DNA from: Bacteroidia bacterium
Lineage (GTDB): Bacteria; Bacteroidota; Bacteroidia; Chitinophagales; Saprospiraceae
Direction: 5' to 3'
Assembly (NCBI GenBank): GCA_030429045.1
Contig: JAUIEA010000001.1
Location: 1 to 64,000 of the forward strand
DNA length: 64,000 nt
Shown here: positions 4,893 through 45,725 of the stretch, piece after piece
How positions within the stretch are numbered: the first letter of the stretch is position 1
How the letters are laid out: each line of letters starts with the position of its first letter
Notes under the pieces: generated by a model
The model's input: the letters and a program-made list of their open reading frames with translations, nothing else
Databases searched by the model: none
What the model was told of the DNA's origin: nothing
Position numbers and translations under genes: made by a program

Positions 4893-4981
4893 TAGCCCGG
4901 GGTTTTAACCCCGGGTTTTGGATTCAATCTACATCTGTTTTGGCGGCATTTTTGCTGGAACCGCAAAAATGATGACCAAAC
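4893..4981. repeat. Dispersed hairpin module, copy B
   Basis: AGCCCGGGGTTTTAACCCCGGGT...GTTTTGGCGGCATTTTTGCtggaaccGCAAAAATGATGACCAAAC. Confidence 0.85.
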
Positions 4982-5155: not shown

Positions 5156-5725
5156 TCAAATGAGGTCCTTCTCCAACAACCCGTAAATATGACTGTCCAG
5201 GAATTGTCCATTGTAATAGTAGTTCTCCCGGAAATGGGCTTCCTTTTGAAAACCTGCACGGACCAATAAAGTGGAGGACGCCACATTGTCCACGTTGACA
5301 TTGGCCTCAACGCGGTGCAGGCCCATTTTCTGAAAAGCATAGGGCAAAACCACTTTCAACGCCTCGCTCATATAGCCTTTCCGCCAGTGCTCCGGATGCA
5401 AGGAGTAGCCGATCTCCCCGAAGGCGTGTTCCTCATCCAGGCGCCAGTAGCCCACATCGCCCAGATACCGTTGGTCCTTCTTTCGGACCAGGGCCCACAA
5501 CAGGGCCTTGCCAGCCTCCATATTGGCCATTCCATCTTCAATTTTTTCTTTGACCTCGGCCATCACAGCCGGCATAGGGCGGTCGATATACTTCATGACG
5601 TCCTTGTTGGTCCGCTGGATGAACTTCTCCTCCAGAAAACGCAGATCCATTCGCGTCAGAAGCAGACGTTCGGTTTCGAGTTCGGGAAAGGGGTGAAATG
5701 CTGATTTTTGAATGTGTTCAGACAT
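5156..5725 (-). CDS. GNAT family N-acetyltransferase (RimJ/RimL-like)
   Basis: ETERLLLTRMDLRF..., GEIGYSLHPEHWRKGYMSEALKVVLPYAFQKMGLHRVEANVNVDNVASSTLLVRAGF; start set at MSEHIQK because the upstream part of the ORF is repeat-derived. Confidence 0.85.
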   Translation of the reverse strand: MSEHIQKSAFHPFPELETERLLLTRMDLRFLEEKFIQRTNKDVMKYIDRPMPAVMAEVKEKIEDGMANMEAGKALLWALVRKKDQRYLGDVGYWRLDEEHAFGEIGYSLHPEHWRKGYMSEALKVVLPYAFQKMGLHRVEANVNVDNVASSTLLVRAGFQKEAHFRENYYYNGQFLDSHIYGLLEKDLI

Positions 5726-5794
5726 TTTACTAGGTGTTGCGCTCAAGATACTGGAAACGAGATTCTGAACCTGACGGAACGTGCCAATTGGAAA

Positions 5795-5836
5795 GGTATT
5801 CGGTATTCGGCGTTCGGTATTCGGTATTCGGCTTAC
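5795..5836. repeat. Heptamer array (GGTATTC)2 GGCGTTC (GGTATTC)2 GGCTTAC
   Basis: Read directly: six contiguous 7-bp units. Confidence 0.9.
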
Positions 5837-5902
5837 GGACGGGCATCGAGTCCATATGCATGCAGTGGTCGTCTCGTTGTTGACATACGTGGGTCCACCC
5901 CC

Positions 5903-5937
5903 GTCAAAGGGAATTGCCGATGGCAATTCCCTTTGAC
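5903..5937. repeat. Perfect 16-bp inverted repeat with 3-nt loop
   Basis: GTCAAAGGGAATTGCC-GAT-GGCAATTCCCTTTGAC. Confidence 0.9.
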
Positions 5938-5995
5938 ACCCCCGCCAGCGGGGGACATAATGAACATTAAACCATTTCTGAGTACTCGAGACACA

Positions 5996-6045
5996 TTAAA
6001 CATTGAACAGGCTGGCCGTCAGGCCACGCCTTAAACCTTGAACAG
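5996..6045. repeat. 15-bp direct repeats flanking a hairpin
   Basis: TTAAACATTGAACAG-[GCTGGCCGTCAGGCCACGCC]-TTAAACCTTGAACAG. Confidence 0.85.
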
Positions 6046-6080
6046 CCAATCTTCACTATACTTCAAAACCCGAAGACAAC

Positions 6081-6133
6081 CAGGAACTTGGAACAGATCT
6101 TCCCGCCAGGGAAGATCGCAGGAACCTGGAACT
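6081..6133. repeat. 15-bp direct repeats flanking a hairpin
   Basis: CAGGAACTTGGAACA-[GATCTTCCCGCCAGGGAAGATCG]-CAGGAACCTGGAACT. Confidence 0.85.
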
Positions 6134-6135
6134 GC

Positions 6136-7740
6136 CTACAACCCGATCTCCCTCCCCTTCGGATACTTCACTTTGTAGGTAAATCGCAGCTCCTGATTCT
6201 CCCCCGGTGCCAGATCGAGATTCCAGGTGATGATGCCGGATTCCTCATCCAGTTTGCCACCATTGCCGATCTCACTTTTCACTTCGATCTCCTTGTCCTG
6301 GCTGACCGGGATCTGGTCCTGCAGGCGGATGTTCACTTTGCCCGTCTTGTTGTTCTTGACCTTGATCACCCAGGTAAAGGTTTCCTCCACTTTGTTGCCG
6401 AAGAAATTCTTGGCGCTTTTGTCCTTCACCTTGTCGCGTTGGATGGCGATTCCGATATCCGCACCAAGGGACACTTGCAGGCTGTCGCCTGCCTGTCGGG
6501 TGTTCAACCAGGTTTCTCCGATATAGGTCTGTCCATAGTAGATATTGGCCTTGCCGCTGGAGAGATTCAGCTCCTCAAAGTCCTGGACGGTGGCGGTCAG
6601 GAAGGCCAGGGCATTGCGCTTCGGTGCGACGATGTAACGGTAGTCCGCATCAGCCGTTTTCTTTTCCAAAATGACGGTGTAGGGCTTGCCATCGGCCGGA
6701 ATATCAAACTTCTCGGTCAGGGCAAATTCGGTGGTGGTCAGGTTTTCGGAACTCTGCCCCAGTGCTATTCCATCGGCCATCACTCGTTGGCCATCTACAT
6801 AATATTCTGCGGCTTTGTTCCGAGCTCCACGCACATTGGCAGCCAAATCCATTTCCATGGCCTGATAGGCCACTGGCGGTTGTTGGAAGTTGACCCACCA
6901 GGGATAGAGTACCGGCAAAGTATTATTCCGGGAGGGGTCGCCTGTGGACAGGGTCAGATCCACGCCCGTCCAGTCTTCACCGGTCCGGTTGTACACCTCT
7001 CCCTTATAATCGATATCCAGGGGCTTGTTGATCTCATCGACCCGAATGTCAAAGGTGCTCAGCCAGTTGGCATTGGTGGTCAGATAGGTGATCTCCATAT
7101 CTGCAGTTCCACCAATCTTTGATGTCAGTCGAATGACGATGGTACGTGCATTATCCGGGCGGAGACGCTGGCGCATTTCCGCCTGTTGTTTCTTGAGTTT
7201 GTCGATCTCCTTTTTGGATTCGGTCAGTTGATCGACGATGGTGATCTTTTCCGTTTTGATCGCCTTGAGCCGGGTACGGAAATACTCGGCCATCTTCTGC
7301 AAGGCCACTACATCCAGACCGGATTGATCGCCACCGACTTTTTTATTGGTCAGCAACAGGGATTCTTCCTCGTTCAGGACCTCTAGCGTGGCCTGATTGG
7401 ATTTCTGCTCGCCTTCGAGTTGGTCGATCCGCAACTGCAACTTGTTGTAGGCATCCGGCATGGGTAATTCTGCCAGGAATTCCCGAGTCGAGGTCACACT
7501 TAGAATGGTAAATCCCTTGGATACCCGGGCCTGCAAACTGTTATCATCGATCGAAGGGGACAATGCCGGAAAACGGAGCTCTACCGGTCCGGAAGGAACT
7601 GTGACCCGTGCTGTCCTGGTGACCGTTGCACCGGCTCGGTAGACTTTAACATCGCGAATGGTGGAGGAAACCGTGACCGGATCATTGGCGGACAGCAGTC
7701 CGCTGACCAGAAAGAGGGCAAGGAATAGGAGAGTACGCAT
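6136..7740 (-). CDS. DUF4139 domain-containing (mucoidy-inhibitor MuiA-like) protein
   Basis: VTVSSTIRDVKVYRAGATVTRTARVTVPSG N-terminus; central coiled coil; DIDYKGEVYNRTGEDWTGVDLTLSTGDPSRNNTLPVLYPWWV; C-terminal WNLDLAPGENQELRFTYKVKYPKGREIGL. Confidence 0.85.
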   Translation of the reverse strand: MRTLLFLALFLVSGLLSANDPVTVSSTIRDVKVYRAGATVTRTARVTVPSGPVELRFPALSPSIDDNSLQARVSKGFTILSVTSTREFLAELPMPDAYNKLQLRIDQLEGEQKSNQATLEVLNEEESLLLTNKKVGGDQSGLDVVALQKMAEYFRTRLKAIKTEKITIVDQLTESKKEIDKLKKQQAEMRQRLRPDNARTIVIRLTSKIGGTADMEITYLTTNANWLSTFDIRVDEINKPLDIDYKGEVYNRTGEDWTGVDLTLSTGDPSRNNTLPVLYPWWVNFQQPPVAYQAMEMDLAANVRGARNKAAEYYVDGQRVMADGIALGQSSENLTTTEFALTEKFDIPADGKPYTVILEKKTADADYRYIVAPKRNALAFLTATVQDFEELNLSSGKANIYYGQTYIGETWLNTRQAGDSLQVSLGADIGIAIQRDKVKDKSAKNFFGNKVEETFTWVIKVKNNKTGKVNIRLQDQIPVSQDKEIEVKSEIGNGGKLDEESGIITWNLDLAPGENQELRFTYKVKYPKGREIGL

Positions 7741-9218: not shown

Positions 9219-9322
9219 GGCAAACATCTACAGATTCAACACGTGTCGTTTTTTGAATCTTTCATGAAGTAACTGTTTCCTCAGCCAAGAGGCCTATCTT
9301 TGCCCTCTTGACCCGCCCCCAC

Positions 9323-11596
<2,274 letters not shown>

Positions 11597-45104: not shown

Positions 45105-45725
45105 AGTGGAATGGCTAACCTCACCCCCCGCCCTCTCCTTTTCAAGGAGAGGGAGCTTATTCCGGGTAAGTATCCAGTTGCTTTCCCGATTGATGAATAC
45201 AAGGACCCTGTAAGGGTCCAACACATATATCTCCGGATGAAACCCGGGTTACATGCGTATCTCCCTCGTTTTGGCTGAATGTCTAACCTCACCCACGGAC
45301 GATTCCGCTCTTAAAGCGGAATGTCCGGATCCAGACATCCCGCTGAAGCGGGATCGTCTGGGCCCCGCCCTCTCCTTTTCAAGGAGAGGGAGCTTATTGC
45401 ATGGTAGCATTCAGGTTGCTTTCCCGATTGATGAATGCAAGGACCCTGGAAGGGTCCAACATCAATAGCCCCGGGTGAAACCCGGGGTAACAGACCAATC
45501 CAAACCCGTTTTGGCAGAATGACTAACCTCACCCCAACCCTCTCCTTTTCAAGGAGAGGGAGCTTATTCCGGGTAAGTATCCAGTTGCTTTCACGATTTA
45601 TAAACACAAGGACCCTGGAAGGGTCCAACATCAATAGCCCCGGGCTTTAGCCCGGGGTAACAGATCAATCCAAACCCGTTTTGGCGGCATTTTTGCCCCG
45701 CAAAAATGATGACAAAACACCCCTG
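45105..45725. repeat. Three imperfect tandem units (~165-240 bp) of a multi-hairpin intergenic element
   Basis: Each unit carries taacctcaccc...CCCTCTCCTTTTCAAGGAGAGGG agcttatt ... gttgcttt...gat...caaGGACCCTnnAAGGGTCC ... CCCGGGTGAAACCCGGG. Confidence 0.85.

Follow-up and report, generated by a model that had tools for sequence, protein, structure and literature searches.

A REP-like dispersed palindromic element with a fixed direct-repeat frame and a variable hairpin in three related bacterial genomes

Results

Repeat island at 5795-6133

The window analysed here is a 64-kb stretch of DNA, in which a repeat island (5795-6133) is bordered by two minus-strand genes, one for a DUF4139/DUF4140 protein (6136-7740) and one for a GNAT acetyltransferase (5156 to about 5728). 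Every sequence quoted in an earlier note on this window was found at the coordinates given for it. The island opens with six degenerate 7-bp units (GGTATTC/GGCGTTC/GGCTTAC; 5795-5836, plus strand), a neighbouring tandem repeat outside the core element; TTCGG heptamers, three or more together, occur in three further contexts in 784 kb of DNA from the genome that holds the window (G000). A perfect 16-bp inverted repeat with a 3-nt loop (5903-5937, no strand assigned; DNA fold z -9.3) is likewise a neighbouring feature. It is followed by ACACCCCCGCCAGCGGGGGACA (5936-5957, no strand assigned), a copy of the separate palindrome family CCACCCCCGCCAGCGGGGGACA. Between 5960 and 5995 on the plus strand lies a degenerate remnant, TGAACATTAAACC-ATTTCTGAGTACTCGAGACACA, detected by a fuzzy scan allowing at most 2 substitutions per 13-mer, which has the right-hand repeat in common with the main unit. 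We tentatively regard it as a decayed neighbouring unit; at its place the congener G002 has an inverted partner without a hairpin.

The main unit, module A (5991-6054, plus strand), is a full-length copy of a dispersed element whose consensus rests on about 70 copies. It scored 78.6 bits with covariance model R1, a model built from sequences that include module A itself along with copies of the three genomes (G000 and the congeners G001 and G002). Its left 13-mer TTRAACNTTGAAC (6008 being its last base, 5996 its first) and its right 13-mer TTRAACNTTGAAC (6031-6043), both on the plus strand, are invariant columns in alignment A1. They enclose the hairpin insert AGGCTGGCCGTCAGGCCACGCC (6009-6030, plus strand), which folds as DNA with the loop c(GTCA)g and whose stem, TGGCC/GGCCA, is one among 47 different stem strings in 66 distinct inserts. 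Taken as 15-mers, the direct repeats are TTAAACATTGAACAG at 5996 and TTAAACCTTGAACAG at 6031, identical at 14/15 positions. The right end AGCCAA... and the linker AACCCGAAGACAACCAGG (6044-6080, plus strand) are common to G002. Module B (6077-6143, plus strand) is a GGAAC-heptamer version of the frame around GATCTTCCC-GCCA-GGGAAGATC; its direct repeats CAGGAACTTGGAACA (6081) and CAGGAACCTGGAACT (6119) are identical at 13/15 positions, with GATCTTCCCGCCAGGGAAGATCG at 6096. DNA folding z-scores were -2.8 and -3.8 for modules A and B, respectively.

Other palindrome arrays were seen in the window at 263-363, 4896-4971 and 45131-45708 (CCCGGG...CCCGGG, CATTTTTGC...GCAAAAATG, CCCTCTCC...GGAGAGGG and GGACCCT...AGGGTCC), and palindromes like these flank a Y1 gene at G000:C136. 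Repeat DNA also occurs inside coding sequence. The ORF at 9308-11596 (762 aa), which has K/A-rich and DDRRRDDRPF repeat regions, contains an in-frame (AAAACCG)n heptamer tract near 9982-9996, with a hairpin-like stretch after it.

Repeat-hairpin-repeat architecture

A blind scan of the window for perfect stems of at least 5 pairs bracketed by 14-mers with at least 12/14 identity returned only the hairpins at 6013 and 6096, while 20 shuffled windows gave 1 match in all. The same generic scan on 650 kb of the own genome gave 6 matches, as against 0 to 1 in shuffles. Chance is thus ruled out as the source of this architecture, and the two direct-repeat/hairpin units described in the earlier note are confirmed together with their coordinates. 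The note had held that the two units share an architecture but not a sequence. The first half stands; the second needs qualifying, as both follow GAAC-N2/3-GAACAG-[hairpin]-C-GAAC-N2/3-GAAC, and the covariance model of module A finds 6077-6143 weakly (16 bits, E 0.065 for the window). It had also grouped three hairpins by a CGYCAG loop. Two are indeed alike, with c(GYCA)g tetraloops, but the third, CCCCCGCCAGCGGGGG at 5939, has a g(CCAG)c loop when folded and is a member of a different repeat family, which has 4 contexts in 784 kb of own-genome DNA.

Hairpins bracketed by GGAAC are found elsewhere with other stems, and a hairpin nearly identical to that of module B, with GGAAC brackets, lies at G000:C126:213-262. 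The frame of module B is related to that of module A, and the two modules may share descent, the score being weak.

The dispersed element: frame, hairpin and boundaries

The element is about 64-70 bp long and reads TCACG-TTRAACSTTGAAC-[20-26 nt hairpin]-TTRAACSTTGAAC-AGCCAAGCGTT. Its fixed frame consists of two near-identical 13-mers, each made of two TTRAAC/TTGAAC heptamers, and of conserved ends, TCACG... and ...AGCCAAGC. A search of the 4.27-Mb genome with the pattern AACNTTGAAC-N8..38-AACNTTGAAC gave 34 matches, as compared to 1 in the reversed control, far above chance, thereby bearing out the proposal of a small palindromic element. When about 70 copies from the own genome and the two congeners were aligned, conservation was limited to the frame and the ends. 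On the right it reached background level in about 12 bases; on the left a few bases were enough, unless the copy had a head-to-head partner there. The direct repeats thus belong to the element itself as constant segments and did not arise by duplication of differing target sites. Head-to-head pairing is recurrent, and in most of the examples compared the inner heptamers are separated by the same 17 bp.

Inside this frame the stem changes and the pairing is kept. A stem of five or more pairs, G-T included, was present in 82% of the 66 distinct inserts and in 21% of letter-shuffled inserts. When 17 copies were aligned without gaps, 80% of stem cells were paired vs 58% after shuffling, and 35 cells were changed on both sides of the stem vs 14.7; 0/500 shuffles reached the observed pairing or the observed double changes, though the rows are related, so that these shuffle counts are not probabilities. 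The covariation signal was lost on sliding the partner by one to three columns. Most copies have c(GNNA)g loops, and a(CTTG)t is also used. An outer stem formed by pairing of the two 13-mers was considered as well; its columns are invariant and hence uninformative on covariation.

Bracket and hairpin occur together in essentially all copies. Among 35 hairpin cores of 14 nt or more searched in 1.82 Mb from the three genomes, 34 occur only inside TTGAAC brackets, and the remaining one has a single extra, chance-like match. At 114 loci of unrelated bacteria picked for their TTGAAC tracts, adjoining hairpins were seen at 6.0% vs 3.8%, which is not significant (p=0.067). The bracket specificity of the cores and the lack of a significant hairpin excess at foreign tracts show that frame and hairpin form a single unit.

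Distribution and genomic placement

At E<=0.01 the covariance model found 63 copies in the own genome, 59 in G001 and 86 or more in G002 (the number of candidates scored per genome was 86), numbers that rest on draft assemblies. The element has thus multiplied within a limited clade. Some copies stand in tandem arrays (G000:C247, G002:C14, G002:C81), so that segmental duplication adds to copy number. At the same threshold there were no copies in two further congeners (G003 and G004) or in 32 other genera of the family. Elsewhere in the order the model matched G055 (11), G042 (3) and G051 (2); of the G055 sequences listed, most consist of TTGAAC heptamer arrays, in some of which a hairpin is embedded. 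An exact scan of the genome collection with the right end of the element gave no matches, and a looser scan returned mostly plain TTGAAC arrays. No related DNA was found on plasmids except a 28-bp match at chance level. TTGAAC arrays that hold short hairpins, some of these with a GNA or GTCA loop, were observed in a few unrelated bacteria, including Prevotellaceae and a planctomycete (L177, L185, L231, L249, L269, L270); they are rare and show no significant overall enrichment.

The element is extragenic by our rough gene calls, in which 1 of 99 placed copies falls inside a predicted gene. Relative to co-directional genes, 21 copies are in sense and 26 in antisense orientation. By element count 42 of 98 copies lie between convergent genes; this apparent strong preference was set aside, as enrichment counted per intergenic region was not significant (7/98 vs 14/356, p=0.18).

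Another hairpin family, in which the stems vary around a constant GTGTCTCAC core, is abundant, with 26 contexts in 784 kb of own-genome DNA. These hairpins often lie near TTGAAC elements (L017, L042, L102, L131 and other loci).

Retained, absent and hairpin-less copies

The orthologous intergenic regions of G001 and G002 both carry the element in the same orientation as 5991-6054. In G002 the stem is of the same family and the stretch from module A through the linker to module B is tandemly duplicated; the inverted partner there is a single 13-mer. At the G001 locus (L124, G001:C200) the same kind of brackets hold a different hairpin, AAGGAGC-GCAA-GCTCCTT. This unrelated stem at a shared position may reflect either stem replacement at one site or an independent insertion, the two being indistinguishable. 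Orthologous copies have also been retained with small changes in the stem (G000:C99:113679 vs G002:C108). At G000:C23:6966 the element starts right after a stop codon and is absent after the orthologous stop codon in G002 (L325), where the alignment is clean on the gene side and poor on the other. A search for empty sites that align on both flanks gave none, the intergenic DNA of the species being too diverged, and transposition as such is therefore putative.

Hairpin-less versions, which the earlier note had proposed to look for, do exist, namely the inverted partner in G002 and the own-genome locus L152. The near-identical islands L032 and L152 differ by exactly one 13-mer plus the hairpin. 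The hairpin-less form at L152 keeps one 13-mer and both conserved outer ends, and is therefore a deleted copy and not a naive target. Polymerase slippage between direct repeats at a hairpin has been described to yield just this product, the loss of one repeat together with the hairpin (PMC4134008). Since filled copies number more than 60 and empty ones are few, loss is the more economical direction, and the hairpin-less copies are most simply explained as deletions between direct repeats.

Discussion

We consider it probable that the two units of the island are copies of a REP-like, non-autonomous dispersed palindromic element of about 64-70 bp, which spreads as DNA and whose palindrome is kept at the DNA level. 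Copies would spread through a trans-acting enzyme or through recombination, and the palindrome would be maintained as a cruciform or a single-strand hairpin, not as RNA. The stem diverges between copies inside the fixed frame while its complementarity is kept, and the bracketing repeats would allow precise loss of the hairpin through replication slippage. The data can be explained without assuming any function for the host. The roughly 200 copies in three related genomes form a compact data set of hairpins that keep their shape and change their sequence within one frame, on which three modes of palindrome upkeep, namely selection on RNA, selection on DNA shape and mutational copying, can be tested. 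The element is also a further repeat family for which no mobiliser is known, in this respect like the CGTC REPs, for which no dedicated transposase has been reported (PMC3733652); an earlier description of the family is possible.

A bolder reading, which we hold to be rather doubtful, is that of a new kind of mobile or self-maintaining palindrome, in which the direct-repeat frame is fixed and the hairpin turns over, complementarity being kept at the DNA level, for example by hairpin-templated correction at replication or by a recombinase that reads frame and shape and not the sequence of the stem.

It is unlikely that the elements are REPs mobilised by a TnpAREP/RAYT (Y1) transposase of the lineage, as in REPtrons and as the earlier note had suggested. 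The point in favour is a TnpAREP gene at G002:C14:31412-32023 with NHIH, WQ and YIHQNP motifs, the signature of the Bacteroidetes TnpAREP subclass 2.6 (PMC6006769). It lies in locus L131 (G002:C14:26500-34000), inside a tandem array whose units of about 400 bp hold element pairs and GTGTCTCAC palindromes. However, it is GTGTCTCAC-centred palindromes that directly flank the gene; the gene has no homolog in G000 or G001 despite their many element copies, and TTGAAC heptamers were present at 0 of 29 loci of its relatives in other genera. At many of these 29 loci the gene stands between palindromes of a single type that resemble GTGTCTCAC in design; the closest relative has GGTACAAGTCTCCGGACTTGTACC. 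As none of the 29 has TTGAAC and many share this flanking design, the G002 enzyme most probably acts on the GTGTCTCAC palindrome, with the TTGAAC pairs as passengers. Y1 genes are indeed present in the own genome, but all four are flanked by other palindromes, e.g. CCCCGGGTTTCACCCGGGG and GACCCCTACGGGGCC; their motifs, read by eye, resemble subclass 1.2, for which no REPs are listed (PMC6006769). Y1 genes occur in G003 and G004 too, two congeners that lack the element, and the element has no GTAG foot. At those Y1 loci of G000-G004 that were inspected and at the 29 related loci, the element was not seen directly flanking tnpAREP in the manner of a cognate palindrome; among these loci TTGAAC units occurred only as passengers in the G002 array, and no transposase linked to the family was found.

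Selection for an RNA hairpin, acting in mRNA 3'-end processing, as an sRNA, as a terminator or as a site for an RNA-binding protein, is quite improbable. Strong stem covariation speaks for it, and in Beggiatoaceae a role as sites at the RNA level has been put forward for direct repeats of heptamers (PMC4679880). Against this, the stem mismatches, scored alike for both types, comprised 21 G.T and 25 A.C (p=0.66). There was thus no excess of G.U, nor any sign that the wobble pairs of one strand are better tolerated. The third base is C in most GNNA loops, which does not fit RNA GNRA. The sequence d(cGNNAg) may be an unusually stable DNA loop. The copies lack an orientation bias to genes, 5700-6200 contains no site of the intrinsic terminator kind (a G+C-rich hairpin followed by a T run), and Rfam at the gathering threshold found only a tRNA in the window. 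A DNA-level element is favoured, which may have a weak RNA role.

The reading put forward in the earlier note, that a mobile hairpin enters or is templated from short tandem repeats, with the brackets as target sequence or as duplications of the target, is very improbable: hairpin-less counterparts exist and several different hairpins sit within GGAAC heptamer arrays, but the brackets are the same 13-mers at all loci, dozens of them unrelated, the hairpin cores have no other dispersed context in 1.8 Mb, L152 is a deleted copy, and foreign TTGAAC tracts show no significant hairpin excess. For module A this reading is largely refuted.

The DNA-level dispersed element is best compared with the REP, BIME and REPIN elements, with their GTAG and CGTC superfamilies (Di Nocera et al. 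2013, PMC3733652). Like these, it is a short extragenic palindrome with tens of dispersed copies, which occur singly, clustered or, often, as inverted dimers; it has alternative complementary stem residues and stems of 6-13 bp and rarely lies between divergent genes. Unlike these, its hairpin is enclosed by 13-mer direct repeats, it has far more stem variants per family, no cognate RAYT was found for it and its stems have no G.T bias. Neither strand has a GTAG tag (or GYAG/GTRG) at the foot of the hairpin, where consensus and A1 read GAACAG before the stem and CTTRAAC after it, and the CGTC seen in some copies sits where stem and loop join, c(GTCA)g, and never at the end of the palindrome. Since both tags and the RAYT link fail, we do not file the element as a REP of either superfamily; it is REP-like by behaviour but belongs to neither the GTAG nor the CGTC group.

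The subclass 2.6 REPtrons of Bacteroidetes, whose REPs are described as lacking GT[AG]G (PMC6006769), are from the same phylum, and a 2.6-like gene lies with elements in the array of one congener; they differ in that the palindromes by the gene are of GTGTCTCAC type and that the 29 relatives in other genera lack the TTGAAC frame. Relatives of this TnpAREP (L345-L373) often have, to the left and right of the gene, a perfect palindrome of a single type in each genome, e.g. GGTACAAGTCTCCGGACTTGTACC, TGCAAGTCAGAGACTTGCA or GCCGAAGTTTGCAACTTCGGC, which makes one-palindrome flanking a candidate common design for the 'atypical' REPs of subclass 2.6.

With the heptamer STRRs (TAACTGA repeats), whose hosts include Bacteroidetes and Cyanobacteria (PMC4679880), the element shares intergenic 7-bp direct repeats. 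STRR arrays are uninterrupted head-to-tail runs of usually more than two 7-bp units, whereas the element has exactly two heptamers on each side of a 20-26 nt hairpin, in a fixed frame with conserved outer ends. Integron attC sites, finally, are defined by inverted R''/R' boxes that an IntI integrase recognises; the frame repeats of the element are direct.
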